Source of the DNA: Paraniabella defluvii
Lineage (GTDB): Bacteria > Bacteroidota > Bacteroidia > Chitinophagales > Chitinophagaceae
Length of the DNA: 64,000 nt
Assembly: GCA_019316985.1 (NCBI GenBank)
Contig: CP079215.1
Coordinates: 6,014,001-6,078,000, forward strand
Direction: 5' to 3'
Below the pieces are notes generated by a model that was not told the origin of the DNA, did not search any database, and saw only the letters and a program-made list of their open reading frames with translations. The stretch's first letter is position 1, and each line of letters starts with the position of its first letter. Both the position numbers and the translations under genes were made by a program. This document shows positions 2,936 to 35,383 of the stretch, in pieces.

Positions 2936-5086
2936 ATGAAAATACGCTCCTGTACCATTTTGCTTCTTCTAATATCAATTGCCGGTAAAGCGCAAACAGG
3001 CAGTATTTTTATAGAAACCGATAACACTGCTATTGTTTACAAAATAGGAAAGGACAAAAAAGTAAACCAGGTATATATAGGCAACAAGCTATCGAGATCG
3101 GATTACACGGAGCTGAGCGCCGGACGGGAAAATTTACCTGACCGCTGGTATGGACAATCAATTGGAGCCGGCCATTCGCGCCGTACACAGTGATGGCAAT
3201 CCTTCACTGGATTTGCAGTTCGACAGCTATCAACAGCGGAAGGAAGGCGATATTACCCATACACAAATCAGGCTAAAGGATCCTGTTTACCCTTTTAATG
3301 TAACGGTTCACTTTAAAGCCTATACCCGGGAAGATGTGATCAAAACATGGACTGAAATATCGCATAAAGAAAAGCAACCTGTAATGCTGACGCAATATGC
3401 TTCTTCGCTGCTGCACTTAAATGCGGGGCAATACTGGTTAACACAATTTCACGGGGATTGGGCCAGGGAGGTACAGATGATAGAGGAAAAGCTTTCAAAT
3501 GGTATAAAAATATAGAAAGCAAGCTGGGAACACGAACCAATTTTTATCAGACACAAACTTTTTTGTTTCGCTGGAGAAGCCCTCTTCAGAAAATGAAGGA
3601 AAGCTGATTGCGGGAACACTGGGCTGGACCGGCAATTTCAAATATACTTTTGAAGTAGATCAAAAAAACGGGTTAAGGGTTATTTCGGGAATTAACCCGT
3701 TTGCATCAGAATATTACCTGGCTCCGAACGAGGTATTTAGGACGCCTGAATTTATATTTACCTATTCAGCAAAGGAAAAGGGCTGGCCAGCCGTAATTTG
3801 CATAAATGGGTAAGAAATAATGCCCTGCTCGATGGCAATGTTCCCAGGATGACCTTGCTCAATAACTGGGAAGCTACACACACCAGCTTTAATGAGCAAA
3901 GGCTTACGGAGCTTTTTGATGAAGCGCACAAACTGGGTGTAGACCTTTTTCTACTCGATGACGGGTGGTTTGGTAACAAATATCCGAGGAACGATGACAA
4001 AGCCGGCCTGGGAGACTGGCAACCAGACCGCTCAAAACTTCCGAACGGAATAGGCAAACTGGTAAAGGAGGCATCCGCGCGCGGCGTAAAGTTCGGCATC
4101 TGGCTCGAGCCCGAAATGGTGAATCCTAAAAGTGAACTATACGAAACACATCCCGACTGGATATTGAAACTGCCCAACCGGCCGGAAAGCTACGGTAGAA
4201 ATCAATTGGTGCTGGATCTTACAAACCCGGCTGTTCAGAACTTTGTTTATAGTATCGTGGACGATATGATGACGGAAAACCCGGGGATTGCTTTTATAAA
4301 ATGGGATTGTAACCGAAGCATGACGAACGCCTATTCCACTTATCTTAAAAATCGTCAATCACATCTTTATATTAACTACACCAAAGGATTATACAGTGTG
4401 ATGGAGCGAATAAGGAAGAAGTACCCCATTTACCCATTATGCTATGTGCCGGAGGCGGCGGCCGTACAGACTACAAAGCCCTCGAATATTTTACGGAGTT
4501 CTGGCCCAGCGACAATACGGATGCCCTGGAGCGTATCTTTATACAATGGGGATACTCTTATTTTTTTCCGTCAAATACTATTTCGGCACATGTAACCAGC
4601 ATGGGAAAACAGTCTCTTAAGTTCAGAACAGACGTGGCGATGATGGGCAAAATGGGATATGACATCCGCATCAACAACTTCACCGGGCAAGAGCTTGAAT
4701 TCAGTAAAAACGCGGTTAAAACCTATTCTGAAATCAGCGATGTTATATGGAAAGGCGATCTTTACCGCCTGATCTCACCCTACGACCAGAACAGGGCGGT
4801 GCTGATGTATGTTAACGACGCTCAAAGCCGGGCGGTGCTCTTCAACTATCATATGAACCTCAGGAAAAAGGATAATTTTTCCAAGGTGTTGCTGGAAGGC
4901 TTAAATCCATCCAAGAGTTACCGGGTACGCGAGATCAACCTGTTGCCCGGCACATCATCTACATTACCGGACAATAACAAAATATTATCGGGAGCATATT
5001 TAATGGAGGCAGGAATCAATATTGCACCGGGAAAGCTGCAATCTTTAACAAGCAACATCATTGAAATAACAGAAACCCCTATATAA
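2936..5086 (+). CDS. GH36 alpha-galactosidase, secreted, frameshifted
   Basis: About 715 residues with a signal peptide (MKIRSCTILLLLISIAGKAQ). GH36 hallmarks are all present: the N-terminal beta-supersandwich, then LFLLDDGWFGNKYPRN, GIWLEPEMVNP, the nucleophile segment GIAFIKWDCNR (Asp of KWD), LCAGGGGRTDYKALEYF and the acid/base segment FWPSDNTDALER, then a C-terminal beta domain. The enzyme should hydrolyse terminal alpha-1,6- or alpha-1,3-galactose in the periplasm. Frame changes occur near 3145, 3508, 3785 and 4437, with conserved sequence on both sides. It sits between a six-hairpin glycosidase-like gene and a dual esterase, a plausible trimming set for a galactose-decorated polysaccharide. 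Family assignment is firm; the exact substrate is inferred. Confidence 0.88.
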
Positions 5087-5192: not shown

Positions 5193-7168
5193 ATGATGGG
5201 AGCCAGAAGTTTGAAAAAAACAAGAAGATACTATCCTTGCTGCTTTTGCTTGCCGGCCTCTTATGGCTAAAGCATGGCACAGCCCAGACTGTTGGTGATG
5301 AGCGCCCGACTCAATGGAAACATTTCAGGAAATTTCAGTTTACACTCGATGGTGCCGAAGCCTGGTACATAGAACCGGCAAAGCCCCTGCCGGGGAAACC
5401 CTGGGTATGGCGTGCCTATTTCCCCGACTGGCACACCGACATGGACAGCATTTTACTGGAACGGGGAATTGCTATAGCCTATATAAAAGCAAATGATTTA
5501 TTCGGGCACGCTTCTGCTATGAATTTGTGGGATGCTTTATACGATTTCCTTGTTTATAAAAAGCAATTTGCAGCCAAACCTGCCCTTGAAGCTGTAAGCC
5601 GAGGAGGATTATACGCTTATGCCTGGGCTAAAAAAATCCATCGAAGGTAAGCTGCATTTATGCGGAGGCACCGGTTTGCGATTTCACCAGCTGGCCTGGG
5701 GGAAAGGCCGGGGAACCGGTTCGGCCACAGATTGGAAAAAAATTATTGAAAGTATATGGCTTTTCAGAAGCGGAAGCCATACAGTACAACGATCAACCCA
5801 AAGACAATCTTGAAACGCTGGCTGCCTATAAAGTACCTATTTTACATGTAATAGGTTTAAATGACAGCATTGTTCCTAATGAGGAAAATACCTTTAAGCT
5901 TGTACAAAACTATATCAAAGCCGGCGGACCTGCGGCAATAGTGCCTATGACCAAAGGAACGCAAAGCCTGCAGGGGCACCACTTCCCTATTGAAACCCCT
6001 GAAGGGCTGGCCAATTTCATCATCGGAAATATTACACCGGTAAAGCCGGTACTGGCCAGCGAGCGTTTTATATCTGTCAATAACGGGCTCTCCAACCTGG
6101 CTTACCGCATCGGCCAAAAAGATTCTATCACAGTGGCTTTTTAGGCGGTTCAATTACCCATATGAAAGGATGGCGTAATATGGTTGGCAGGTTTCTTACA
6201 GAATATTATCCCGGCGCCCGCTTCCGTTTTATTAACGCGGGCATTCCGTCGCTGGGCAGCTTACCTCATGCCTTTCGCCTACAAAATGATGTTTTAAGCA
6301 AAGGCAGGATCGACCTCCTATTTATAGAATCTGCTGTAAATGATCTGGTGAACCGAACGCCGGCAATTACGCAGCAACGCGCACTAGAAGGCATCATCCA
6401 TCACTCGCTGACTGCTAACCCCTACATGAATATCGTTCTCATGGGGTTTGCCGATGAATTTAAAATAGCCGATTACAGCGCGCACAAAACACCGGCCGAA
6501 ATACGGCTACACCAGGAGCTGGCGCTCCATTATCAGGTTCCTTTTATCAACCTGGCAGCAGAGGTTTATGAACGCATCGGTAATAAGGAGTTAAGCTGGC
6601 AGGACGATTTTAAAGACCTGCATCCCTCCCCTACGGCCAGGCATTGTATGCCCATTCCATCCAAACCCTGTTAAAAAGGGCATTGCAAAAACCGGCAGAT
6701 CAGCTTGTAAAAGCTACAATACCACCTCCACTGGACAGGAAAAGTTACACCCGGGGAAGCTACCTGCCCGTGTCAGCTGTAACCAAAAGTAATGGCTTTA
6801 ACATCAACCAGTACTGGGAACCAGCGGATGGTGTAAGCACAAGACCCGGGTTTGTACAGGTACCTGTTCTGGAAGCGACAACGGCAGGAGCTGCCACAGA
6901 ATTAACATTTAAAGGTTCAGCTATCGGCATAGCCGTTCTTTCGGGCCCCGATGCAGGAATCGTTGAATATACAATAGATGGAAAAGAAGTAAAGACCGCA
7001 GACCTCTATACACAATGGAGTAAAGGATTACACTTACCCTGGTTTATTTTATTAGGCGACGGATTACCGGAAGGCAGCCATCAGCTGAGGCTAAAAGTGG
7101 CTCCTCAGGGTAACACCGCCTCCAAAGGAAACGCGGTCAGGATTGTTCATTTCCTGGTAAACAAATAG
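5193..7168 (+). CDS. Fused alpha/beta-hydrolase + SGNH/GDSL hydrolase (dual esterase), frameshifted
   Basis: One reading path of about 650 residues joins two hydrolase folds. Residues ~30-300 are an alpha/beta-hydrolase: nucleophile elbow EAVSRGGLYAYAW, then ILHVIGLNDSIVPNEEN carrying the likely acid, and GHHFPIETP carrying the His. Residues ~330-480 are an SGNH hydrolase: block I FLGGSITHMKGW, Gly block INAGIPSLGS, Asn block ESAVNDLV and block V DLHPSPTG. A beta-sandwich follows (AIGIAVLSGPDAGIVEYTIDG). I chose the ATG at 5193 because a signal peptide appears in the next frame (ILSLLLLLAGLLW). A run of seven A at 5213-5219 needs an eighth to join them. Other breaks are near 5640, 5750, 6140 and 6645. 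Likely role: removing acetyl or similar esters from polysaccharide in the periplasm. The fusion is the unusual feature. Confidence 0.72.
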
Positions 7169-11896: not shown

Positions 11897-13609
11897 TTAC
11901 CAACCCGGGTTTTGAGGATATGCCGTTCCCGTAGTCACTGCATCGATCTGGTTTTGAGGAATAGGGCGTAGTACATGAAATTCTTTGATGTTTGCCGCCG
12001 CTTCGGGATTATAGTTCTTTGTCTTCACCCGGTCTATCAGTTTACCGGTTCGTACGAGGTCCAGCCATCTTGTTAGCTCGCCACATAATTCCCGGCTACG
12101 TTCATCAAGAATAAAATCCAGGGAAGGGATCGCTGATACATCCATGACGGCGGGGTTGGAATTGGGATAAGCAGCCCGCCTTCTCACTATGTTAATATAT
12201 TGAAGCGCCTCGGCCGTACCTGCGCCGCCCATAAATGCAGCTTCAGCTGCTATGAGGTAGGTTTCTGCCAGGCGGTATACTATTACCGGCCTTATAGAAG
12301 GATAGTTCATGTCAGCCCTCTTGGTGTCGTTATACTTCTTCATATAGGGGCTCAAGCTGATATTATAATTATTGGGAGGCATCAATAAATACCTCGCAGC
12401 TGCAATCTCGGCAGCAGTAGCCGGTTTACCAGGCATAAAAATGGCGGTGTCTCCCACCGAAAATTTGGGTTGTCCCACTACTGCGCCCGCCGGTGCTCCC
12501 GGAGGCAGAGGAGCCGTCCACTTGGGAATGGAGGCGGCATTATTACTGTACCATACCGTTTGAAAAGTTTTATTATACCTTGTATCATTTACACGCTCGG
12601 CAAATGCCACTTCTGTTAGCCACCGGGTGGGTACGCAACGTATATACGGCCGCCCATATTGCACATCTCTTTTCATACCGCCCACATCTTCATACTTAGG
12701 CACCCACATATGGTTCAGCACATTATCTGAACCGCCGCTATTATTGGGGCCGTTATAAGCCAGGTTGGAGGTATGCTGTACCGTCCAGATCACTTCATTG
12801 CTGGCTTCATTTCCTTCTTCAAAAACCTGCCCGAAATCAGGCAGCAGGCTGAGCCCGCTTTTATTGATCACTTCTGTAGCGCTGTTATAAGCATTTTTAT
12901 AATCATCCGCTTTTTTTGCAGCTGAGCCGGCTCTTGCCAGGTATACCTTAGCCAGCACATGCCATGCAGCAGTTCTGGTTACCTTCCCGGGCAAAACACC
13001 TGTTGATTTAGGGCTTAATGGCAAAGCAGGTTCAGCAATAGCATCATTCAGATCCTGGATAATGAAATCATATACCTCTGCCATGGGGGGGTGCGTGTTG
13101 CCGATGTTACCGGGGTGGTTTGAAAATTCGTGTTGAGTGTTACATCGCCCCAGAATTGCACGAGCAAAAAATAGAAGTTGGCTCTCAGAAATTTTGCCTC
13201 AGCCACAATCCGGCCTTTTTGTTCTGCAGAAAGGCCCGTTACTTTGGAGGCATTTTCTATGACGCCGTTACAGGTATTGATATTGGTATAACACTCCTTC
13301 CATATAGCAGCTACCGTACCATTGGAGGTATTGTAGTTGCTATTATACTTGTTTATATCATTGTTCCCGTCTTTACCCGTGTAAAACTCGTCTGTACCTA
13401 TTACCGTCATCGTAAAAGGTTTTGTGTTCCCCACAGGTTCCTGGTGCCGGCATAAGCCGCGTCCAATCCGCGCTGAAAACCCTGCGTGGTTGAAAAAACT
13501 CAGGTGTAAGGATAGAGTGCGGTTCCTCTCTCAATTGTTTGGTACAAGCTGAAACAAGCACTACCAACAAGAGGTTAAGCCAAAAAGAAAATAGTTTTTT
13601 CATGTTCAT
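11897..13609 (-). CDS. SusD/RagB-family glycan-binding lipoprotein, frameshifted
   Basis: About 565 residues. The start MNMKKLFSFW precedes a lipoprotein signal ending LVSAC, so the mature protein should be anchored in the outer membrane. The SusD fold shows in the N-terminal TPR part (IWKECYTNINTCNGVIENA, AEAKFLRANFYFLLVQFWGDV) and the C-terminal part (VIVYRLAETYLIAAEAAF, LDFILDERSRELCGELTRWLDLVRTGKL). It ends YPQNPGW, the usual SusD ending. Breaks lie near 13085 and 13430-13480; one T or C run miscalled by a base would explain each. It follows the SusC gene at 13686-17074 by 76 bases and forms the receptor pair with it. The ligand cannot be told from sequence. It lies downstream of an ECF sigma/FecR pair. 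Confidence 0.87.
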
Positions 13610-13685
13610 AATATGTTTGGGTTTGCCAAAGCAACAAACCGTTGTAAAAATCTGATATCGTGGAATTATCATTCATCTTCAGGGG

Positions 13686-16600
13686 TTACAATGTAATATT
13701 CAATCCAAAAAGAATAGAATAGGTAGCAGGCGTATCTACATTGATTTCGCCGCGGTTGTTACCTGCATTAATGGCTTCAGGATCGATGCCCTTATACACA
13801 TTGCGATACTTCGAGAAAAGAATGAAGGCATCATTGGCTGTAACATATACTCTTGCCGAACGGAGATTCAGGAACGAGTTGGGAAGATTATACCCCAATG
13901 TCAGGCTCCTGACTTTAACGAATGTTCCGTCGAAATATCCCAGGGTTGAGTTATTAGGTGTATTGGTAGACGCGGCATTAGGCTTTGGCCAAAAATTTTC
14001 GCCATTGGTCGGCGTCCAGTAATTGACACGCAGGTTGTTGTAATTTCCCTGGAAAGTGTTGGCAAAACCACTATTGTGCATACGGCTGGTAATAGTGCTT
14101 CCAAACCGGCCAAAAGCAACAATCGTAAAGTCAAAGCCTTTATAAGCTAACCTGTTGGTAAAGCCTGCCGACCAGCGGGGCTGGCTCGAGCCCAATATCA
14201 CCCGGTCGCTTGCATTGATCTTGTTATCGCCGTTTACATCTTCTACCTTTATATTTCCGATAACCGATCCGGTACCGGTAAGAGACAGTCCCAGGCTTTT
14301 GGCAAGCGCCGAATCCGCTGCCGTATTCTGCCAGATACCTATCTTCCTGTAATCAAAAATGGTTCCTATGGGATAGCCAACAAACCGGCTATTGGTTATA
14401 TCCATTGTTACCCCTTCCTGTAGTTGCGTTATTTTGCCCCTGTTTAAAAAGAAGTTGATATCTGATGTCCAGCTTACTTTATTCCGGCCATCTCCTGCAA
14501 GGTTCACCGTTGCCAGCTGTATTTCTATTCCCCTGTTTTCCGTTTTACCAACATTGGTTACAATAGCATTGGGGATTCCGGAAGTAGGCGGTAAGCTTTG
14601 TGGTAGTAAAGGGAACTGGTGGCCTGCTTATAAAATTCAACAGAGCCGGATATCCTGTTATTAAACAGGCCAAAGTCAAGCCCCAGGTTGGTGCTGGCAG
14701 TATATTCCCAGGTTAAATTAGGATTGGGAACATCTGAGAGATAAACGCCGGTTGTCATCTGATCGCCGTAATTGTACACGGCTCCCGATAAGGCGCCAAG
14801 GGTTTGATAGGGATCAATCGCCGTGTTACCTACTTTACCGTAACTCACCCTCAGTTTAAGGTTGGAGAATATACGCGCATTACGGATAAAATCTTCCTGT
14901 GCCAGGTTCCATGCCAACACACCCGAAGGGAATGCCTGGAACTGGTTACCGGGCGCCAGTCTCGAAGACCCATCTGAACGTACGGTTATAGTAGCCAGGT
15001 ATTTATTTTTAAAGGCATAGTTGGCGCGCCCCATAACAGAGACGATATTCCATTTGGCATAGCTGCCAACACCCCGCAAATTGGCGCCAAACGCGGGGTT
15101 ATAATACCAGAGAGGATCAGCTACGATATCATTATTATCAAACTGGCTGGTTTGCCCCTGGGATTCCTGCATACTAAATAATCCTGTAAAATCGATCCGG
15201 TGTTTTTCAGCGAACGTCTTATTATACGTCAGAATATTTTCCAGTGTATAGTTCGTAGCAAATTCTGTCCGGTTTCTTGAAGTGGAAAGCCCTCCAAGAT
15301 TATTGGATGTTGCACTCGCATAGTAATTACCATAGATGTCGGACCGTATTTCGGCACCGGCGTTGAACCGGTATTTTAACCCTTTAGCCAGGTTCACGTC
15401 GAGGTATAACGTAGTAAAGGTTCCGGTTCTTTTACGGTTCTCTATTTTGGCACCTTCTACAAAATCGCCAAGCGGATTCCACACCTGATTGGCACTGCCG
15501 GGAACAAATCCCCATAAATTGCCGTTCTCGTCATAAGGCGTAGCCAGGGGACTGGCTCTTAAAACCTGACCCATAGGATTGGCATTTTCACCTTTAATAA
15601 CGCTAAAGTTGTTTAAGGAGCTCAATCCTACTTTTACCGATTTACCTAGCTGCTGATCGAGGTTGAGTCTTACAGAAAAGCGTTCGAACGATTGACCCGG
15701 GTAAATACCTGTTTCATTATGATAGCCTGTAGAGATCGCGTACTGTGTTTTAGCCGAACCTCCGGAAACGCTAAGCTGATGATCTGTATTCAACCCGGTC
15801 TTATAAATCAGGTCCTGCCAGTCGGTACTACGCCCCATGTTCATCGACTCTATTTCCTGCGGCGCAAAAACTCCATCCGCTATGATTGCAGGATCGTCGA
15901 TGCCCGTATACTTCCTGCTGCCATTGCTGAGGAAATTTCCGTTATAAGCCGCCCACTTTTTAAGCAGTGCAAACTCTTCCCCGTTCATCACTTCTATTTT
16001 TCCCAGGTTTTTCACAAACCCGGTATACCCGCTGTAAGCCACAACAGGCTCTCCGTTACGACCCCGGCGACTTGTAACCAGTATTACTCCATTGGCGCCC
16101 CTTGACCCGTAAATAGCGGTGGCCGATGCATCTTTCAGTACTTCGAGCGAAACGATATCGTCCGGGTTCAGATCGTTAATATTGCCGTTATAAGGAATTC
16201 CATCCACTACAAACAGCGGCCCGTTATCGGCACTTATAGAGCGAACGCCCCTGATGCGTATCACCGGCGAGGCGCCGGGCTTGCTGTTACCGCCGCCCTT
16301 TTGAATATCGATACCGGCACCCCTTCCCTGCAACGCCTGCGAAAGATTGGCAGCAGGCACCTCACGCAAAGACTTTTCATTAATGGAGGTAATGGAACCC
16401 GTAACATCAGACTTGCGCTGGGTACCGTAACCTATCACTATCACTTCGTCGAGTTTTCCATCTGCCTTTTCGAGCACGATGCCCGAACCGATAGCAGTTA
16501 TAGCTACCTCCCTGGTTTTAAAACCAACCACAGAAATAATCAGTATAGACTGATCATCCTTTACATCAATACGAAAACTGCCATCATTTGCGGTAACAGT

Positions 16601-17074
16601 ACCGTTAACTGTTCCTTTCTCAATAACATTGGCGCCGGCTACAGGCTGACCATTCTGGTCAACAACGACCCCTTTCACCGGTAACGCCGCTACCATGTCA
16701 TTACCGGTGTCGCCGGTGATAACAATTAATCCTTTCTTCATTTTTTTATAGGAAAAACTGGTAGTTTTTAAAATCTGCTGCATTACTTCGTCAATAGTTG
16801 CATTCTTCGCAAATACATCGATTTTCTGCCGGCTCAGCGCCACGCTGTCGCTGTAAACAAACCGGTAGTCATACCGCGATTCTATTCCGGTTAGTACCGC
16901 CAAAATAGAAATATTAGCCTGCTTCAAATTTATTTTCTCCTGGGAAAACGTCTTGATCGCAATTGCCTGACTGGATGTTAAAAGAATAATAAATACGGCA
17001 AGCTTCATTACCAATATATATTTGATAATTAATTGCACCCTAACGCGCATGGCGGGGCAATCCTTAATTTTCAT
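13686..17074 (-). CDS. SusC/RagA TonB-dependent outer-membrane transporter with STN domain, one frameshift
   Basis: About 1,130 residues. The N-terminus has a signal peptide (YILVMKLAVFIILLTSS), a STN (secretin/TonB N-terminal) domain at ~45-115 (SILAVLTGIESRYDYRFVYS) and a carboxypeptidase-regulatory-like beta-sandwich (VKGVVVDQNGQPVAGANV). Next come the SusC TonB-box-like segment LDEVIVIGYGTQRKSDVTGSI, the plug (VIRIRGVRSISADNGPLFVVDGIPY, LKDASATAIYGSRGANGVI) and the beta-barrel. STN domains contact a FecR-type anti-sigma across the periplasm, which matches the FecR and ECF sigma genes directly upstream: substrate binding should release the sigma factor. One break at about 14593 (AA should be AAA on the plus strand) splits the barrel. 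The other two SusC genes in the window lack the STN domain. Confidence 0.92.
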
Positions 17075-17213
17075 ATTTTTGTATTAATTAAAGTGATTGA
17101 ATATTGCTGTCCAGGCAATGATTACTTTACTATCCGGCGGGAAATGGTTGCACATTTTCCGCTTTTTTGTGATTACATGTTATGACTGATTATTCATACG
17201 GGCCTATTTTGGT

Positions 17214-19001: not shown

Positions 19002-20504
19002 CTAAGGCCCGGGGCCCAGCCTCAGCTTTAACTGCTGCAGATAAAGACTAAGCGGCTCCACTGGTTTATTATGAGAATCGTAAACTCCTTCCGGTAAAAA
19101 CGGCTCTTTATCAAAAGGCATAGCCTTCTGTTGCCGTTCTCCGGAAGAACCGATGACCCAGTTAAAAGCTCCCGGGGCTGCTGATTTAAATACGACTTTG
19201 CTACGCAGTTCCAGGCCACAGCCCAACCTACAGACCAGCCATGGCCGGAGCCCATTTCACCACGATTCATGAAATCAATACCACCGTCGGGCACCTTACA
19301 TCCGTCAATCAATAAGCCGGTTGCCCATCTTTGATGGGGCTGTATCCAGCCATTACCGCTGAAGGTACAGTTCAGCAACACGTTAGGTCCGCTTACTTTT
19401 GCCCCGGTAGCCAGAAAAAAACATTATCGCCACGGATCTTACATTTATTGAACAACAGCTGCCCCCATTAGCACTCAGGTCGGCTGGCTTGGCTGCTCCT
19501 ATGGTAGAAGCAGTATGCTGTATATCGATGTTCTCTACAGTAATTCTCCTGCCGGAAACAGCAATGCTGTTAACGGTGTTACTGATGGAAAGATCGCGGA
19601 GCCAGCCATCTGCCACGCCCTTTACCCTTATTGCCGAATGATGCTGCTGGCTGATGGTAACCGATTGCTCCGGGGCAACTATAGAAAGATTTTCCAGGCC
19701 CACATTTTTTACTTCGCCTGTTCGTCTTATTTTTTGTACCGTTGTTCCGGGTGCCGTAAAATGAGCGTCATAGCTATCGGTTAAAGGAACCTCTATCATG
19801 ATGACATTATTTTTACCGCCCTGATGGTGCGTTCTGTAGTCAGCTCCCCGGTTATCCAGGTTTGCTCCTTACCATCCCGCACCAAAGCATCCATTCCCAT
19901 AAAATGCACCCATGAATCGGTTACCGGCTTGCTGATTGCAATTTCATCTCCTGCCGAAAAGTTCCTGCCATCTGCTACTGTAAACTGATGAGCCCCGGAG
20001 GGTACATAAGCATCGGTAATAAAAACAGCTTCTCCCACCCGTTCGGTTTTTAGGTTTTCCCCAATTGAAAAACAAACATGCGGTACACCCGTCATGATAA
20101 TTTTCGAAGCTTCGCCTGATCCTCTCAGCACAATACCGTCGCTGGCCAGCCGTATTGTTTGTGAGCAGGGATAATTGCCGGGCGCCAGTACTACAGCACC
20201 CTGAAACCATCCTGTAAAGGCATTTGCGATACGGAATCTATAATACGCTGGATATGGGCTGCATTATCGCCTGCTACCGGGTAAACAGTTACCCGGGCAG
20301 GTATTTCGGGAATTCTTACGCCACCTCCCTTATAGCCCGCATAAGAAAAATCTATAATCCGGTCGCCCTTAGCCGTGCCTGTGTATTCCAGCGTTCCCGA
20401 TCCAGTCTTTTTATCCATTTACTTTGTGCTGCAGCAGTATGTTGCGCAACGGCAGTGCCCAGCCAGGTGGTTACGCTAACCATGACAGCAACTATTTTAT
20501 GCAT
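19002..20504 (-). CDS. Secreted right-handed beta-helix (pectate-lyase-like) protein A, frameshifted
   Basis: About 500 residues with a signal peptide (MHKIVAVMVSVTTWLGTAVAQ). The N-terminal part (IIDFSYAGYKGGGVRIPE, NAAHIQRIIDSVSQMP) is the start of a pectate-lyase-superfamily beta-helix. Helical rungs follow (NVGLENLSIV, GWLRDLSISNTVNSIAV). The C-terminal part has GPNVLLNCTFSGNGWIQPHQRWATGLLIDGC and GSGHGWSVGWAVAWNC, motifs shared with the paralog at 48547-50047. Breaks occur near 20200, 19800, 19440, 19370 and 19190. The start overlaps the end of the GH28 gene by 13 bases, so it is translationally coupled and the last gene of the 25-kb operon. Probably a lyase or hydrolase on uronic-acid polymers; the reaction is not established from sequence. 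Confidence 0.68.
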
Positions 20505-22067
20505 ACGGGGTAAGTTGGGTTACTCAAAAAGGTTTTGTCCACCGGGTAATTTATTTTTTTCAGGTAAATCTGTGACTTACTGGCTGCGTCGGCCACTACC
20601 AATGACCGCATATTCCCATAAACAGTCCACCCCTCCAGGGTAATATTGGCAGACTGTTTTATATGTATTGCAGAGGCCGCATTTTTCGTTGCGGGGATTA
20701 CAGCATCCGTAACCGCCATATTGGTGGCATCCTGCAAAAACAAGGCTGGCCGCAGATCGTTGCTTCTTAGCACGAACTGCAATCCCTTAATCCTGATATC
20801 CTTTACGTGCCGGGCCCAAAGGCCGTAAGATGGAATAACCGGGCCAAAAGTTTTAATTTCAGGATATTCTTTAATCGCCTCGGGAACATTAGCCATTACC
20901 TCATCCGCAGCGCCACCGCCGGGTAATTCTATCCATATATTTTCCAGCGTTACACCGGATAATTGATGTTCAGGTACGCCGGTCATAAGAATACCGGTTG
21001 CGGCTTTCAGCTGTGTGCTGTCTGCAGATACGGCTGTTATATTTTTAATATCACATTTTCAAAATACCCTGTAGTTTGTTGCTGATCCTGTCCTTTTCGA
21101 AATACATTGAGGCGCGATCCAAGACGTAGCAATATGGGTGTGCGAACATCATTCATTTTTACATCGGCTATTGTTATATTTTTTATCGGAGCGCCATCTA
21201 CCGACAATAGCTTAATGCCCCCGTTACGGGTTTCATAGATATAACAATCCCTGATATCAATATCTTCAAAACCGGCCATAGACTCGGTTCCTATTTTGAT
21301 ACCGGCCTGGCTGCTTTTGAGCCGCATTTTTCTGACAGTGATATTTTTACAGGCCATTTTGCTGGAGGTGGTTTTAAATACCAATGCATCATCGCCGCTC
21401 ACTACATCGCAATTGCTGATGTTAACATCCTGACAGCCATCAATACCAATGCCGTCATTATGTGCCACGCCTGTACTGCGGATCTTTACATTTTCTATCT
21501 CAATATTCCTGGACTGGAAATAGTGCGATGTCCATGCACCGGCATAGTTCAGGCTGATATCTTTAACGATCACATTATCGCACCGGACAACGCGTAGTAA
21601 AAAAGGTCTACGTCCCCAACGCTGGCCTTCGGGCCTGGTATCTTTAAGTATATGTACCGCTTTTAAAGCAGACCCCTGTCCGTCAATAATACCCCGGCCT
21701 TCGATCCCTATATTTTTCCGGTCTACGGCTACCAGTAATGCCCATCCTACGTCTATACCCAGTCCTTCGGTAAAAGGATCCACATTGCGATAATCCCCGA
21801 TATCCGTACTACCCAGTAAACGCGCGCCTTCTTCAAAGTATAGCTTTATATTATCTCTGAACTCTACAGTGCCGGTAAGATAATCTCCTTTGGGAAAATG
21901 ACCCTCCCGCCACCTTTACCATGGCAATCATCTATAGCCTTCTGAATAGCGGCAGTGTTCATCGTATGTCCGTCTGCTTTGGCTCCGAAATCAGTAACGA
22001 TTACATCCGCTGCCCGTATAACCGAAAAAATGCCGGATAGCGCCAGGAAAAGCATCAATTTTTTCAT
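20492..22067 (-). CDS. GH28 polygalacturonase-type glycoside hydrolase, frameshifted
   Basis: About 525 residues, with signal peptide MKKLMLFLALSGIFSVIRAAD and the entry motif VTDFGAKADGHTMNTAAIQKAIDDC. The beta-helix shows the GH28 signature blocks: VAHNDGIGIDGCQDV, VVSGDDALVFKTTSS (catalytic Asp pair) and SSQAGIKIGTESMAGFEDI (substrate-binding Lys region). The family hydrolyses alpha-1,4-galacturonosyl or related bonds in pectins. Breaks lie near 21890 and 21035. A C-terminal extension (VTLENIWIELPGGGA ... PSYGLWARHVKDIRIKGLQF) is shared with the GH28-type protein at 45568-48381. It lies 19 bases after the GH29 gene and overlaps the beta-helix gene by 13 bases. Confidence 0.85.
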
Positions 22068-22086
22068 AACTTTATTATATACACTA

Positions 22087-23513
22087 TTAATCCAGTTCGC
22101 CGGTTTTCATTTTCTGGGTTCCCTTGATATTTATGTTGGCTACTTCACCGGTAACGGTTAGTTGTATCAACGAGGCTATTTTATCCGGCGCTGCAGCTGG
22201 TACGCCAATCACTATAGTTCCGTTCTCATTTTTCACGTCAAGCTTTTTCCCGGTGGCTACCAACCTCGCTTCAACGGCTTTGTTGGTAATTGCAGGCACC
22301 ACTAATTTTCCGTTGGCAGGCCAGTTGAATACAAAAAGATTCAGCCGGGTATTTTTCCCATCCGTTTTTATGGTACAACGTCCCCAGTCCAGATCCTGAA
22401 GGGGACTGGCCTTGGTTGCATAAATAGCATTGCCGTTCACCTTCATCCAATTACCGATCTGTGCTAAACGGTCTATGCTTTCCTGTGGTACCGAGCCGTC
22501 TTCTTTAGGACCGATATTCAACAGGTAGTTGCCTCCTTTGGAAGCAATATCAACCAGGTTCCGGATTAATAATTCTGTAGATTTCCAATTATGATCCCAG
22601 CTTTTATATCCCCAGCTCCCATTCATTGTCATACAGGTTTCCCAATCCTGCCCATCCAGTTCTGCCTGGGTCGGTATTTTTGTTCCGGAGTTTTGGTATC
22701 TCCGGGAAAATTAGGACGTTTCAGCCGGTCGTTAGTAATGATGCCGGGCTGCAGCTTTAGTGCTTCCTGGAATTTTAACGCGGCAGCATCGGTCATATTG
22801 GTTGGTGTATCCCACCACAAAACAGCAATATCTCCGTAGTTTGTCAAAATTTCCTTGACCTGCGGAACAGCCACTTCGTCTATGTACTCATCAAAGGTTT
22901 TTGTCTCCTGCAGCGGATCCCAATGACCTTTATGCGCGGCGGTATAGGCATCTATTTTTGCAGAATCCGGATTAGGCCAGCCCTCCCTCATTTCCTTACG
23001 TGCTACTGAACCGCCGGGATTATTCCAGTCCTGCGCCTGGGAATAGTAAAATCCCAGCTTCATGCCATATTTCCGGCAGGCGTCTGCCAGGGGTTTTAGT
23101 AAATCCTTCCCGTACTTAGTGGCATCTACCACGTTCCACTTACTGGCATAAGATTTAAATAACGCGAAGCCATCATGGTGCTTGGAAGTAATGATAATGT
23201 ATTTCATACCGGCATCCTTTGCCATTTTTACAATAGCGTCAGGATCATAGTTGACCGGGTTAAATGATTTAGCCCGCTCCTGGTATTCTCGTACAGGGAT
23301 CTTGGAGCGATTCATGATCCACTCAGCGCCACCCCTTGCCTGCCGGTGTCCGTGATACACACCACCCCACTGGGCATATACGCCCCAGTGAATGAACATG
23401 CCAAAACGCGCTGCCCGCCACCATCCCATACGGGCATCTTTATCTGTTGTTTGCGCCTGCATTGAAGCCGAAAAGATCAATGCCGACATAAGTATTAAAT
23501 AGAATTTCTTCAT
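22087..23513 (-). CDS. GH29 alpha-L-fucosidase A, one frameshift
   Basis: About 475 residues with signal peptide (MKKFYLILMSALIFSASMQAQ). GH29 blocks: [47 protein letters not shown], the nucleophile segment IAVLWWDTPTNMT (Asp) and GGNYLLNIGPKEDGSVP. A C-terminal beta domain follows. It should remove terminal alpha-L-fucose in the periplasm. A single break near 22630-22680 falls in KIPTQAELDGQDWETCMTMNGSWGY. It is one of two GH29 genes in the operon; with the GH95 gene, this gives three enzymes of fucosidase-type families. It follows the PL6 gene by 37 bases. Confidence 0.9.
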
Positions 23514-27637: not shown

Positions 27638-29512
27638 TTACTTTTTAATTAAAGTAATTCTAAGGGGCGCATCAGTTCCTGTTTGGTTATAGATACCGGC
27701 TGAATGACCAGCGTATGTATTCCTTGTTTTAACTGCACCGGGCCTATATTTTTGTCAGCATATCCTCTCCTTTTGCAGCCGGTTGAAGCACCCTTCAGCC
27801 AGCTGTTTACCATCCAACATCACTTTATAAGTACCGCCGGAACTCATTCCAACAATATACTTCAGTGACAGATCAAATATTGCATCCCTATCGTTCCTAA
27901 AGGTCCAGCTGATGGTTTGTGATGGCAGCTTCCATCCATCCACGTAATACCGGTTGGTTTTTCCATCGCCAAAGCCAAAACCTTTTCCGTTCAAGGCCGC
28001 ATCAAACGCAAGCATTCGTGCAACACGGCTATTGGGAGCTATATAACGTATACTGTCGAATCGGGTTCCCTCATTGAGTTCCAATACTACTACGGTGTTG
28101 GTAGTATCCGGCGCTGTTGCAGGAAGTTGAATCTTCCAGTCTTGCTTGCCTGCCCTTATTATGTTCAAACTTTTAGTTGTATCCGACAATAAATAAGTTC
28201 TCCTTATACCGCCTGCAATTCCACCTACATAGAGCTTACCATCCGCAGGGTAATCAAAAACGTGTAAGTATAGTTTACCTTTTTTATAGGTAGTAACGCC
28301 CCAGCTTTGAAGAGGAGCCGGCGTAGCCACAGTACCATAAATGCTCTCGCCATTTTTATCCATCCACCGGCCAATACCCTTTAAAATATTTTCATCCTTA
28401 ACATCTATAGAACCGTCTCCCATAGGGCCTATATTCATCAACAGGTTTCCACCTTTTGCCGCAGCACTGGCCAGCAGCCTTATAAAATGAGCCGCGGGTT
28501 TATGAGAAAGATCAAACCGGTTGTAGCCATAGCTTTCATTGGTTGTTGGAATAGCTTCCCAATTACCTGTAACGGGATAAAATTCAGCGGGGCGGTCGGC
28601 CGTATTTTGTAATCGCCGAAATTATTTTTTCGCTTCTAACCAGTCGCCCGTTTACCACCACATCAGGATCTGCTTTACGAATGGCTTCCAGAATGCGTAT
28701 ATTCTCCGAAAACGGCAATTTATGAGGTGTATCAAACCATAAAATATCGGGGTGATATTTATGAATCAGCTCTACAATTTGCGGGATGGCTTTTTCATCA
28801 ACATAGCGCTTTGCCTTTTCTAATAATTCCGGGTGCAGATTGTACCAGCCGGTACCGCCATATAGCTGTAAGTCGCCACCCGGGTTTTTGTACTCCCAAT
28901 CGTTACCCGGCGCATCAGTGTGCTCCCAGTCGAACGCATGGGAATAATAAAACCCAAACTTTAAACCATTCTTTTTGCAGGCTGCCTGCAATTCATACAT
29001 AGGGTCTCTTTTAAAAGGAGTTTGAGCCTGGATATTAAAGTCGGATACCATTGACGGATACATGGCAAATCCATCGTGATGTTTTGCGGTAATCACCAGG
29101 TAACGCATGCCGGCTGCTTTAGCGTCCCTCACCCATTCTTCTGCATTAAATTCCTACGGGATTGAACTGATGGGCAATTTCCAGGTAATCCTTTTAAAAA
29201 TCTTCTCTTTTCTCATTAAATGCTCCCCATATCCCTTTACCTCCCTGCCCTTCCATTCTCCGCCGGGAAGCGAATAGATGCCCCAATGGATAAACATACC
29301 AAACTTTGCATCGCTCCACCATTTTATGCGGTCTTCATGATTTTTCATGGAAGTGGCCCACCAACCATTTAATGCCGCCTGCACGGCGCTGTTGTCGCGA
29401 TCGGTGCCCGCTTTATTAAACATCTCCTTATCCTCATCCCCTTCACCTGCGCTTCAACCAACAGCATTGAGAGGCCACACAAAACCGTTAGTATTATTTT
29501 TGCGTACTTCAT
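27638..29512 (-). CDS. GH29 alpha-L-fucosidase B with C-terminal beta domains, frameshifted
   Basis: About 625 residues, longer than GH29-A because of added C-terminal domains. Signal peptide [24 protein letters not shown]29 blocks: [48 protein letters not shown], nucleophile segment [12 protein letters not shown] and [16 protein letters not shown]-terminal carbohydrate-binding-like domain follows ([19 protein letters not shown]), and the protein ends [11 protein letters not shown] after repair. Breaks lie near 29430, 29140, 28610, 28450 and 27770, and one A is missing near 27690. The ATG overlaps the stop of the alginate-lyase-family gene (ATGA), a sign of translational coupling. GH29-A and GH29-B differ enough to suggest different linkages, such as alpha-1,2 and alpha-1,3/4, but this is not provable here. 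Confidence 0.87.
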
Positions 29513-30683
29513 TTTGTTAGCCATATTAAAGGGTTACGTACAGGCAGGTTACGAATCACTTCTTCTACTGTCGGGAAGTGATCGAGCTTTGTCCATGTGT
29601 TGAACCAATCCCGGTTATGAAAGGCCGCAGCGCCAAACAATAAAGCAGGTTGGGCCACGGGCCAGTTATTCCAATACATTACATCCTGTTTAAAAGGCCA
29701 TTTGTTTTTATTATTGATATAAGGATATAGAAATGCTATTGCCTTTTTAATAGAACGACCATCGGTTGTCTGGTAGCTCCAGAGATCATCTTCTTTTGAG
29801 GAAAGTATCTGGCAAACAGTTGCCATGGCATCCAGGTTAAACAGCGAATAGCCATAAGGTTTGGTACGGGCCAGCTCTCTTGGGAAACTCCCGTCGGGCG
29901 CCATCTGGTTGGGCAACAGCACTTTTTATAACGATCTGAACAGAAGTCCATCCATTTTTGATTGCCGGTAAACTTTGCAAAGCTGGCCACCTGCATCACC
30001 CAGCAGGTACCGTGATTATTAGCTGCGTTCATTTCATCAATGCCATATTGATGGGAGGTTACCCAGTCCAGGTATTGTGCAAACCACTGCTTTACCTGGT
30101 TTAAGGCTTCCTGATCCATCGCAGGAGATTGCTGCATCATGTAAAGTCCCTGGGCTACTTCAATTAACTGTATCGCATCGATGATACCGATACCCCTGCC
30201 TGTTGCTCTTCCTTTAATAGCCTGCGCGTAAAGAAGGCTCGGGTTCATTTTTGTTGCCGTATCAACAAACCAGGCTTTACAATGTTCCATCGCCTTTGTT
30301 ACATACTTATCATGCCCTGTAATGCGCCATGCTGATGCCAATACGCCTACAATCCGGCTTAAGCGTATCATTGCCAGCCGATGCGCCACAAAGTTACCCG
30401 GGTTGGTCATCCCATCTTTTTGAATATAAGGACTATCCGCGTTTGCAGGATTAGGCCACCAGTAGTCGCCTTCGCTGTAAAAGTCGTGTATGCCACCTGC
30501 ACTTCTCGGGGAGGTTTGTGCAGTAACCGTTACAGTCTTTTCTTTAAGCGCCTTTTCTGCTTCTTTTAAAACGTTGTTACGCAGCTGCTTTACAGCGATA
30601 TTGTAAATATCAGCCGTGTTGCTTTGCTGTGCACGCAAGCCGGAGGCAGCTCCCATTAATGCTATGACAATAAACCATCTCAT
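29509..30683 (-). CDS. Alginate-lyase-family (helical) polysaccharide lyase, one frameshift
   Basis: About 390 residues. The start at 30683 gives signal peptide MRWFIVIALMGAASGLRAQQ and leaves 4 bases after the GH31 stop; an ATG at 30737 would overlap GH31. It is a helical toroid of the Alginate_lyase (PF05426) type: FYSEGDYWWPNPANADSPY, NFVAHRLAMIRLSRIVG, LIEVAQGLYMM and the NNHGTCWVMQ motif, whose His is catalytic in the family, then NQMAPDGSFPRELARTKPYGYSLFNLDAM. Related families (PL5, PL38) act on alginate or glucuronan, so a beta-eliminative uronan lyase is likely. One break near 29925 is joined by SDRYKKVLLPNQM. The 3' end overlaps GH29-B by 4 bases. Confidence 0.78.
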
Positions 30684-30687
30684 ATTA

Positions 30688-32821
30688 CTATTGGCCCGAC
30701 ATAAACCGGAATGTGATTTTGTTATATGATTGAACATTCTTATTGTGCGCCGCTTCCACAACGCCTTTTAATTGCCCTTTGGTATCTTTTTCGATCCTGA
30801 TAGTACGCCAGTCAAAAGCGCCCTTTTCATAATCCAGGCTTTGACCGTCATCATCGTAGAGTTTGTAAGTACCTTGTTTTTGACCGTATACTCTTACTTC
30901 CAGATCTACTTTTTCTCCTTTACGGGTGCATGCAATTTTGCTTCCATCATGGGAATAATACCACCATCTTTTACGAATACCGGGATTTTATCAAGTCCCG
31001 GTGTTACCGTTATAATTTCCCCATCTCCTGCATACGCCCCGGTATAAAAATCAAACCATTTTCCTTTGGGTAAAATAACTTTTCTTGTTTGCTGACCGGT
31101 AAATAGAGGCGCTACCAACAGATATTCTCCCGCCATATACTGATCCTTCACTTCTTTAGTTGTCGCTTCCAGGTACGGGTTATCATCCAGGTTTCCTTTT
31201 ACAGCACTCACCGCATTTACTTCAAAGCCGGGCTCCAGGCTCATACCACGAAAAACAGGAGTTCCCTCAAAACGATATTTTGCAAACTCGCTGTACCAAT
31301 AAGGCATCATTTGCATACGAAGCAAAGCCAACTCTTTTACCTGCTCTGCCACATCGGGATAAGACCAGGGTTTGGTGCCGCTTGACCAGGCGTTGATCAT
31401 GGCCATTGGTGAAAAAATAACGGTTTGAAACCGGCGCAGCCATTCCTCTGAAGTTTTGGAGGCACGGGCCTCGGGAGTCCACAGTACACCAATGTAACCG
31501 CTATTGATCAGGGCGGTGATAAAGTCTTCATGATTATAATAATCATTGTAGATCACATAAGGAAAGGTATTGGCGCCCGCATTAGACGCTCTTACCAAAC
31601 CATAGGTACGCTCATTCTTTTGCCTAAACATATCCAGGCTGTATCGCATAGCCAGTACGCCGTACGTCTGCCGCATGGGCTCCCCGGTTAAGCCGCCGGG
31701 GAAACGCGCCACATCCGGCCAGAGATAATAATCATATCCATCTACTTCGTCAATCTTATAACCGCTTACTCCAATGTCTACCTGGTCTTTTTTAACTGAC
31801 CGAAAAAAATATCGCGAGCCTGCGGTATCGTAAAATCAGGCACTTCGCCCACCCAAACCGTATGCGAGCCGGTATAGGGCGACATTTGTTTATAAAACCT
31901 CGCTTCTTTTGAAACATAAGGATTAATCCATAAGTTTAGACGGATATCCTTATCGCGCATCTCCTCACGAATTTTCCGGGTTGGGGAAAGCGTTTTTGTC
32001 CCATTCAAAAGTGCCGGGGTAAGCGCGGCTTTGCCATCCAGGCTCCAGGCCCACAAAATCCAGCGGGTATCCTTTGAGACGAAAAGAATCTACCTCTGCT
32101 TTTACATCATCAGCCGTATACAAAGTTTTCACCCGTTGAGTGAAACCCAGTCCCAGCGGGGCGGCAGCACGCCACCACCATTAAATAAATTATATCTTCT
32201 TACAGCATCCAGGCTGGTAGGACCCGCAAATACATATACTTCACTACCGGCAGCCGGCACTAAAATTTCTACTGCATCTGAATAAGGGCGCGAACTCCAG
32301 CTTTTATCTTCATTCCTGTTTTTTCTCTGCAGGGGATGCTTACTATCCTTTCTTACTGAAGTACCGGCATACACAGTTATATACCTGGCCGAATTAATAA
32401 AAACGCCATACCCTGCGCTGGATACATAAAAGGAACCGGGGCGTGGGTGCGCCGTTGTCCTTACCACCATAGTGATCCATATGTAACTGCAGGATTTTAC
32501 CCCGCTGATGCACGGTTTGAAAATTCAGTCCCAACCCGAACAGCTGCTCCTTCTCCTCCAGGGGAAAGCGCAGATAGGTTTTACCGTCCACAACCGAAGC
32601 CGTAATATCCTTGATGCTTATGGGCAGGGGCTATTCCCCATCTTTTGCAACGCTTCGGTTGCCGGAACTGATCCTGAAGCCTTTAATAAATCGTAGGTCT
32701 CGGGTTGGCCGGCTATACCCTTCCATACTCCGGGCGCTACCTGTTGCCACTGGAGCGATTGAGCACCGGCCTTATTGAATAAAGCTACAAACAGATATAT
32801 GAAAAAAATATAATGACGCAT
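30688..32821 (-). CDS. GH31 alpha-glycosidase (alpha-xylosidase/alpha-glucosidase type), frameshifted
   Basis: About 710 residues with signal peptide MRHYIFFIYLFVALFNKAGAQ. GH31 blocks: KEQLFGLGLNFQTVHQRG, FVGLEPGWQ, IRLNLWINPYVS, the nucleophile segment VSGYKIDEVDGYDYY (Asp of KIDE) and FNPxYxHEDF-like YNDYYNHEDFITALINSGYIG. The C-terminal PVFRGMSLEPGF and YLLVAPLFTG are also typical. The KIDE variant rather than WxDMNE separates it from classical alpha-glucosidases; I cannot tell xylosidase from glucosidase or galactosidase. Breaks are near 32625, 32440, 32130, 32040, 31790 and 30905. Stop at 30688 inferred after repair (NKITFRFMSGQ). It starts 2 bases after the GH95 stop. Confidence 0.83.
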
Positions 32822-32823
32822 TG

Positions 32824-35383
32824 TTATAGTGGTACAATGGTGTACCTTTTACCTTTTGAGTTTTAAAATTAATGGTATACCCTGCTGTTGTATTTACATC
32901 GGGGAGTTGCTCTTTTGCATTATTACGATAACCGGGCTTCCCGTACCGGGTCAGCAATTTGTTACCGGAATCACCCCGGCGGTTGAAGAAACAACCTCTA
33001 CCACTTTTACAGGCTGCAGGGTGTGCAGGGTGCAGTCCCCTCCTATTTCAGAATAAATAGTTGCATTGCTAAGCTTGTTATTCTTCCAGTTTATATCTAC
33101 TTTAAAATTACCCCTGGCTTTAATGCCTCTTATAAACCCGTCTTTCCAAACAGATGGTAGCGCTGGCAACAGGAACAGGTAGCCCTCATGGCTTTGCAGC
33201 AACATTTCCGTCATGCCCGCTGTTGCTCCAAAGTTCCGTCGATCTGAAAAGGAGGATGCGCGTCGAACAGGTTCGGATAAGTACCTCCACCGCCCATGGT
33301 CTCCCGCTTCTCCCGCGGATCAATATATGCGAAGGCATCGCTTAAGATCTTATAGGCATGATCTCCGTCGCGGAGACGGGCCCACCAGTTAATTTTCCAG
33401 GCCATAGACCAGCCCGTGCTTACATCTCCCCGGAAGATCAATGATTTCTTTGCCGCCGCCGCCAGCTCCGGCGTGCTGCTCAACGTTACCTGGCTGCCAG
33501 GATATAATCCAAACAAATGTGAAAGATGCCGGTGTTTATCAGTAGGCGCATCCCAGTCTTTAAACCATTCCTGCAGCTGCCCGTATTGCCCGATATTAAA
33601 AGGATACAATTGATCCATTGCTTTTTTAAGAGTGGCTGCAAAAGCTGCATCGGTTTTTAGTACCTCAGCTGATTTAATTACGGCAGTAAACAGCTCCCTG
33701 ATGATGGACATATCCATAGTGCTGGCCATGGTAAGCTGGTGCTCTTTGCCGTTGATCTTAATGGTATTTTCAGGCGAAGAGGAAGGATTGGTAACCAGCA
33801 TGCCCGATTGGGGATCTTTAACGAGCCACTGCAACAGGAACTGCGCTGCGCCTTTCATTAAAGGATAGCCTTTCTCTCTTAAAAATTGCTCGTCGCCTGT
33901 GAAAAGATAATGTTCCCATAAATGAGTACTGAACCAGCCGGCAGCCATGGGCCAGCAGCTCCACCGGGGCATAGCAGAAGGGTCATTCCAGCCTTGCCCG
34001 CCCGGAGGGGAGGTCTTTGCCCAAAGGTCTGAATTATGATGAGCCGTCCAGCCTTCATTGATGCCATAGTTTACTTTGGCCGTTACCGCTCCGTTAACAG
34101 CCAGTTCTTTCATGAAGTCGAACAAAGGCTGGTGGCATTCCGAAAGATTGGTATTTTCTGCCAGCCAATAATTCATTTCGGTATTAATGTTGGTGGTATA
34201 ATTGCTACCCCAGGGTGGCTGCACATGATCGTTCCAGATACCCTGCAGGTTGGTAGGTCTTGATCCGGGCCTGGAAGAAGCAATCATGAGGTAGCGACCG
34301 AACTGATAATATAAGGTTTGCAGGCCAAAATCATCAGGCGTTTTGGCAAAGCGCCTCAGTCGTTCATTGGTTGGCAAATCTGCGTGGCGTGACGGACTGT
34401 TAATTTTAAAAACAACCCGGTCAAACAAATTACGATAGTCCGCAATATGGTTGTGCCGAAGCTTTTCGAAAGATATATTTTGTACCCGCTGCATATTGCT
34501 GCCTGCTTCTATACGCGGGGCTTTTCCTCTTTGCCGGGCGACTTATCGAACCCATTGAAGCTGGTGGCATTGGTTAAATAGATCGTTACTGTATTGGCTC
34601 CTGAAATATGAAGTTGATTGCCTACAGCTTTCACTGTTGCACCGGGGCTACTATTTTTAACTGAACCTCAAAGTTGATACCCTCGCCGTTCCAGTCGTCA
34701 TACACCACCTGCTCTTTTTCATAAGCACGGTTGGCTACAAACTTCGGGGCTTTCCCAGTTAATACCAGCCCGTCCTTTCCATTTGCTGCAACCTTGTATT
34801 TCAGTTTACTGCTAAGCGCTGCCGAAATGTTGATGGCTTTGCTCTTATCAGCGCTGAGGCGTACTACCAGTGCTTTATCGGGATGACTTACAAAAGCTTC
34901 CCGGGTATAGCTTACTCCATTCAAAGTATACTTTACCGTAGCAGTTGCTGTATTAAGATTCAAATCGCGGTAATAAGCCGAAGCCGTTGTATCCGGACCC
35001 AGTGTTCTCAGCCACAGATCAGCCATAGGAAGATAACGGGCCGAATAAGGTCCATGCATTTTTTCCAGACATTGGTGGCGCTATCATATAAACCTGCAAA
35101 AATGAGCCGGCGCACCTCAGCCAATATTGCCGGACCACCAGGAGTATTGCCCGGGTTGCGCTCCTGACCAAAGCGTGTTATCATTCAGTTGCAGACGCTC
35201 GGTGCCCACTCCGCCAAATACCATAGCGCCTGTTTTACCATTACCTAAAGGAAGCGCTTCTTCCCAAATGGATGCAGGCTGGTTGTACCAGAGCTTTAAA
35301 TCTTCTCCGGGCGACGATACCTGCGCCTTAACAAGCACTACGGTTAATAATCCCGTAATTAAAAATAATCTCTTATGCATCAT
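32824..35383 (-). CDS. GH95 alpha-L-fucosidase/alpha-L-galactosidase, frameshifted
   Basis: About 850 residues with signal peptide ([21 protein letters not shown]). GH95 blocks: [57 protein letters not shown] (split here only by my quotation), [47 protein letters not shown] and [13 protein letters not shown]. The family inverts alpha-1,2-L-fucose or alpha-L-galactose linkages. After repair it ends [10 protein letters not shown]. Breaks lie near 35140, 35060, 34640, 34500, 33230 and 32900. GH2 stop and GH95 start share the sequence TAATG, so translation is probably coupled; a second ATG one codon on is also possible. Confidence 0.9.

Follow-up and report, generated by a model that had tools for sequence, protein, structure and literature searches.

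The gene at positions 5193..7168 (+ strand) of the window, the 64,000-nucleotide stretch of Paraniabella defluvii DNA analyzed here, probably encodes a secreted, single-chain, bi-catalytic carbohydrate esterase that would take acyl groups off a fucose-bearing pectic glycan. The gene is frame-broken in the assembly and holds, in order, a signal-peptide-like start, an alpha/beta-hydrolase (ABH) domain, an SGNH hydrolase domain, and a CBM35-like beta-sandwich. An earlier note made from this DNA had described an ABH with a Ser elbow, an SGNH hydrolase, and a beta-sandwich in one secreted protein, and all three parts could be located on the + strand in that order. Conservation among relatives, as described below, gives good support to the presence of two candidate esterase sites directed at a single polysaccharide.

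The architecture was established from intact relatives. Our first search covered 59 genomes, including that of the window, and recovered the SGNH piece or distant homologues in 17. The 11 closest matches outside the window's genome have an SGNH piece that is 54-72% identical, and 10 of them carry a single uninterrupted frame of 650-660 aa that includes the ABH; these are the single-chain homologs of ~650 residues that the earlier note had proposed to look for. The eleventh, from the same genus (G014), encodes only the SGNH domain and sandwich from its own start (427 aa) and lacks the ABH. When 84,980 species genomes were scanned, 224 relatives emerged, of which 80 were kept. Because both scan patterns lie within the SGNH half, the first domain was not selected for by the scan. 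In all 80 kept relatives, one frame runs without interruption through ABH, SGNH, and sandwich (L095 starts at a contig edge), although the list was ranked by likeness to the full chain, so that fused forms are favored among these best 80 of 224. The relatives come mostly from Bacteroidota, with others from Planctomycetota, Verrucomicrobiota, Kiritimatiellota, Omnitrophota, Abditibacteriota, and Chlorobiota. Thus, the fusion of two esterase folds claimed in the earlier note is real, is widespread in Bacteroidota and found in other phyla too, and is not peculiar to the window genome. Plasmid records gave three matches at 29-30% identity, none of which reached 80% query coverage.

To describe the folds, the full chain of one relative (L033) was modeled by AlphaFold2 with an alignment of 56 of the 80 relatives (A2), giving a pLDDT of 91.7 and a pTM of 0.82. 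Residues 281-654 of this model match RiCE17 (6hfz_C) nearly over its full length, as an SGNH domain with a CBM35-type sandwich after it (Z 36.1, rmsd 2.9, 348 of 371 residues, 22% identity). RiCE17, which carries a CBM35 clamp, is the CE17 mannan 2-O-acetylesterase of Roseburia intestinalis (PDB 6HFZ/6HH9; PMC9487903, PMC13276840). Its active site is reported as Ser41-His193-Asp190 with Asn110, its CBM35 as forming a clamp with Trp326, and CE17 as described so far from Bacillota only (PMC13276840). In the window, the CE17-like SGNH domain occupies 6076..6690 (+), as placed by PF13472, by likeness to PDB 6hfz, and by residues conserved in all 80 of the best 80 of 224 relatives; the equivalent of the RiCE17 CBM35 clamp lies at 6715..7165 (+), as placed by comparison of the L033 model with 6hfz_C. 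The catalytic codons read from the sequence are Ser 6150-6152, Asn 6339-6341, and His 6621-6623 (+).

All 56 members of A2 match PF13472 (E up to 0.01), and residues Ser315, Gly345, Asn378, and His472 (L033 numbering; blocks I, II, III, and V) are present in every one of the best 80 of 224 relatives. The earlier note had credited the domain with all four SGNH blocks; the Ser, Gly, Asn, and His are there, but a basic residue takes the place of the usual acid at position -3 from the His. This position is Lys in 76, Arg in three, and His in one of the 80 chains (best 80 of 224); position -5 from the His is Asp in all 80 (again the best 80 of 224). From these alignments, the latter Asp may replace the acid, or a Ser-His dyad may work. 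Since the RiCE17-type Asp is replaced by Lys, Arg, or His, the mechanism of the SGNH domain cannot be transferred straight from RiCE17. Membership in CE17 was considered and dropped; we do not claim it because the Asp190 feature was absent when tested. The family differs from RiCE17 in further respects: the identity is ~22%, Asp190 is replaced in all 80 (best 80 of 224), an ABH is fused in front of the SGNH domain, and the gene neighborhood is fucose- or pectin-like, not mannan-like. The column aligned to the clamp residue Trp326 is W in 69, H in seven, and Y in four of the best 80 of 224 relatives, an equivalence given by one profile alignment.

The ABH domain spans 5300..6045 (+) in the window, as determined by tblastn with relatives, by the fold predicted for relatives, and by a triad conserved in all 80 of the best 80 of 224. 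Its serine elbow reads VSRGGLY, and the triad codons read from the sequence are Ser 5597-5599, Asp 5863-5865, and His 5977-5979 (+). The corresponding Ser130, Asp219, and His257 (L033 numbering) are invariant in all 80 fused chains (best 80 of 224). In the L033 model, residues 32-279 resemble esterase D-type hydrolases as closely as they do the catalytic domains of S9 enzymes, both with Z near 21. A separate AlphaFold2 model of this domain (alignment A3, 38 of the 80 relatives; pLDDT 94.8) gave the same picture as the full chain, with alpha/beta-hydrolase folds at Z 20-21 over ~225 residues. The domain has the features of the alpha/beta-hydrolase superfamily, that is, the predicted fold with Ser, Asp, and His after strand, elbow, and loop. 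Acetylxylan esterases are some among many similar folds, and CE1 and CE7 do not stand out in the fold matches, though the domain may still belong to one of them. We do not claim membership of the domain in the prolyl oligopeptidase S9 family (PF00326), given that the 654-aa model consists of the ABH (32-279) and the RiCE17-like part (281-654) and leaves no room for a propeller.

The two halves of the chain also occur apart from each other and in other combinations. We surveyed 294 genomes drawn from the family for the modules at a match threshold of 1e-40; 53 gave a match, in which 13 places cover almost all of the profile and a large number match one half only. We fetched 18 regions, 17 chosen from these matches plus the G014 locus. 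The ABH stands alone in L128, L129, L132, and L134, and the SGNH-sandwich in L118, L131, and L133. A GDSL domain precedes the ABH in L117 and L119, with a further part added in L121, L122, L124, L126, and L127; L120 is a beta-helix/PDZ protein with an ABH at its end; and L130 has the order GDSL-ABH-SGNH-sandwich. Some modules are joined to glycosidases, in one protein each: SGNH-sandwich with GH29 (L123:2606-4972), SGNH-sandwich with GH92 (L125:2797-6246), and GDSL-ABH with a GH95-like domain (L124:2528-5932). The ABH module is carried by Bacteroidaceae too. A Phocaeicola massiliensis record labeled as a plasmid (OY726026.1) encodes a 709-aa GDSL-ABH-GDSL protein, as assigned by Pfam (L135:2320-4449), and by eye the next ORF resembles IMP dehydrogenase.

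A third esterase domain with its own serine motif forms an N-terminal extension of >150 aa in 28 of the best 80 of 224 relatives. It is of the SASA type in seven (L044, L045, L046, L048, L051, L056, and L061) and of the GDSL type in 21 loci lying between L057 and L097. L075 carries a shortened GDSL-like remnant. Pfam confirmed the esterase type in the three extensions scanned (P0001, P0002, and L051). The extra GDSL domain of P0002 (L058) resembles AxeA1-type acetylxylan esterases (NF042968; 4.2e-70, model positions 271-459), but the match falls below the curated cut-off and the domain is absent from the window gene. Separate neighboring GDSL genes forming one BLAST cluster are found at L092, where the gene is named by Pfam, and at five of the seven SASA-type loci (L044, L046, L048, L056, and L061). 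A tree of the SGNH-sandwich part was built from 86 rows, comprising the 80 relatives, L130, and five of the stand-alone or otherwise fused forms. The architecture label changes four times on this tree, at least three of which are forced by well-supported branches, so the ABH half joined or was lost repeatedly; shuffled labels give equally few changes in 29-40 of 500 trials, and the tree is midpoint-rooted with long branches that limit its reading.

These data bear on whether both domains are carbohydrate esterases. It is conceivable, though unlikely, that only the SGNH domain is one, and that the ABH is a structural or specificity domain or cuts a feruloyl or methyl ester or, like S9 enzymes, a peptide. 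Among the nearest folds, S9 peptidase catalytic domains tie in Z with S-formylglutathione hydrolases, 46 of the 56 A2 members match Peptidase_S9 (E up to 0.01), and a comparison of the ABH domain with PDB sequences returned a best E of only 0.021 and no close solved structure. Moreover, G014 lacks the whole ABH while retaining the rest, and in two stand-alone homologues (L129:1840-2709 and L134:2427-3293) Val replaces the catalytic Ser. These two proteins are possibly inactive relatives, judging by the substitution, and they indicate that the ABH fold can persist without its nucleophile. Nevertheless, of the 13 ABH modules in the additional regions retrieved, the remaining 11 keep the triad, as do all 80 fused chains (best 80 of 224), the model is without an S9-type propeller, and the ABH accompanies three other esterase types. 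We favor a chain in which both sites would be active esterases.

Note that the window gene itself must be read across several frame breaks. When the 654-aa protein of a close relative was compared with the window by tblastn, it aligned in four segments in frames 2-1-3-2 at 58-71% identity, with frame changes near 5632, at 6138-6144, and near 6629. Frame reading points to additional possible shifts: the short mismatch at ~5698-5742 suggests two more shifts that cancel each other, and the gene start near 5212-5218 may contain one more. Single-base runs of 4-7 are found at the break sites. The signal-peptide-like region at 5216..5290 (+), assigned by reading the sequence, is leucine-rich, ends in ..GTAQ, and has an uncertain start frame; the relatives start similarly. 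This part of the earlier claim stands, and the protein would be secreted. By Pfam, the piece at 6162-6671 matches PF13472 at 2.7e-12 (48 bits, against a curated cut-off of 32.9), two other pieces give matches below cut-off (the C-terminal sandwich a weak one to CE2_N), and the first piece has no match at E up to 1.

The break at ~6140 that the earlier note had reported is present in the DNA, at a run of five T in 6138..6144 (+), where it cuts the serine region of SGNH block I. The frame that carries the strand before block I runs to 6141, and a different frame carries the catalytic GGSIT; the window DNA reads a stop codon at 6142-6144, and an ATG follows at 6162. We consider it improbable that the gene is a true pseudogene in the window strain. 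In favor of a pseudogene, alignment shows that this single gene contains at least three frame changes, and frame reading adds further places. However, the pieces remain 58-71% identical to an intact relative, and every catalytic residue of both domains is found within them. The GH36, GH105, GH28, GH29, and beta-helix genes of the window are split as well, and the single-contig assembly is 72% complete. The frame breaks are most likely assembly length errors at single-base runs, with which a completeness of 72% is consistent across the assembly, and the gene is presumably intact in the living strain. The alternative in which separate ABH and SGNH genes meet at 6140-6162 has very little probability, for, despite the stop and ATG and the one genus relative with the SGNH-sandwich half alone (L008; L133), a start at 6162 omits the catalytic Ser codon at 6150-6152, adjoining genes are broken in the same way, and the existence of intact single-chain relatives (10 of 11 close ones and 80 of 80 kept, the best 80 of 224) leads us to reject the true stop and start by which the earlier note would have had two genes; the break is no gene boundary. 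Many genes in the window, mainly in 1-30000, are broken at short single-base runs. Since so many genes are split, findings based on ORFs in this assembly need comparison with relatives.

The neighborhood of the single-chain esterase gene suggests a substrate. Directly upstream is a GH36 alpha-galactosidase (Melibiase; 3798..5086, +) and directly downstream a GH105/GH88-type unsaturated uronyl hydrolase (PF07470; 7226..8370, +), both frame-broken and both as named in the earlier note. Upstream of the GH36 gene, another frame-broken gene at 774-2898 gives three pieces without a Pfam match (E up to 0.01). On the - strand are a SusD- and SusC-type outer-membrane uptake pair (11897..17167; SusD by Pfam, and TonB plug and CarbopepD_reg_2 by Pfam for 14558-17074); a beta-helix protein, GH28, and GH29 (19014..23513; by tblastn similarity to genes beside the intact relative L022, GH29 also by Pfam); and a second GH29, an alginate-lyase-type protein, GH31, and GH95 (28082..34494; GH29 by tblastn, the others by Pfam). 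The locus thus holds GH36, GH105, GH28, GH29, and GH95, a gene neighborhood of the pectin type.

In 10 of the 11 close relatives (L022-L031, not L032), a GH29 alpha-L-fucosidase lies <0.4 kb downstream on the same strand, whereas the next downstream gene in the window is the GH105. The genes beside L022 encode two beta-helix-like proteins, a GH105, a GH28, a SASA esterase, and a GH95-like protein; for the GH28, the top NCBIfam matches are rhamnogalacturonidases, below their cut-offs. A search of the window at 1e-8 gave nothing similar to this GH95-like protein, and the GH95 of the window is a different one. When genes at the loci of the best 80 of 224 relatives were grouped by BLAST, with only cluster representatives named, GH29 clusters were found at 23 or more loci, sulfatase at 22 or more, GH95 at 15 or more, and SASA esterase at 11 or more, counts that are lower bounds because full 8 kb flanks were available for 53 of the 80 loci only. 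A fucose-bearing, acetylated pectic glycan fits best as the substrate, judged from neighbors in genomes that are themselves rich in GH29 (2-24 matches per genome in 14 good-quality genomes of the genus). Given the sulfatase cluster at 22 or more of the 80 loci, some family members may act on sulfated fucans.

On this basis, the ABH, by its Ser-Asp-His triad, would attack ester-linked acyl groups, most likely acetyls, and the SGNH domain, with a Ser/Gly/Asn oxyanion hole and a His base, would likewise attack acyl groups, most likely acetyls. Within one glycan, the two sites would differ in the position or residue on which they act, and the CBM35-like sandwich, like that of RiCE17, would hold the sugar chain clamped above the SGNH site. 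The de-esterified oligosaccharides could then serve as substrates for the neighboring alpha-L-fucosidase, uronyl hydrolase, and alpha-galactosidase. The literature searched contained no activity report for any member of the family.

Multi-catalytic carbohydrate esterases have at least two catalytic domains per chain, and both putative catalytic residue sets are present in all 80 of the best 80 of 224 relatives. Such enzymes are already known. Fused CE6-CE1 acetyl-feruloyl esterases are reported from Bacteroidetes (PMC7110780), and Fll4 is reported to hold three esterase domains in one chain, a CE6 followed by two CE1-type domains, with a CBM48-like domain in the middle (PMC12247016). These proteins resemble the window family in joining several SGNH- and alpha/beta-type esterase domains in one Bacteroidota chain, but they differ in domain families and order and belong to xylan loci. 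The fused chain gives no NCBIfam match, with the L022 protein searched at E up to 0.01 and L033 at E up to 0.1, and no chain with an ABH plus a CE17-like part is named in the titles and abstract beginnings searched, mostly outside subscription journals. The ABH plus CE17-like arrangement is a new variant among multi-catalytic esterases. We put forward, tentatively, a broader proposal: the chain may unite two undescribed esterase families, a mobile ABH and a CE17-like SGNH with a basic residue in place of the acid (the Asp at -5 or a Ser-His dyad working), which would clear esters from two positions on an acetylated, fucose-bearing glycan and thereby open it to the adjacent GH29, with a third esterase completing a three-site chain in 28 of the 80 relatives (best 80 of 224).

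Acetyl and other ester groups are a main barrier to the breakdown of pectin and algal fucans, and, to our knowledge, few esterases for fucose-bearing glycans have been described. The exchanged catalytic acid of the SGNH domain poses a clear question of enzymology, and the natural single, double, and triple architectures provide test cases for cooperation between esterase sites. In the family of the window gene, a probable clamp and two or three esterase domains are linked with fucosidases at many loci in Bacteroidota.
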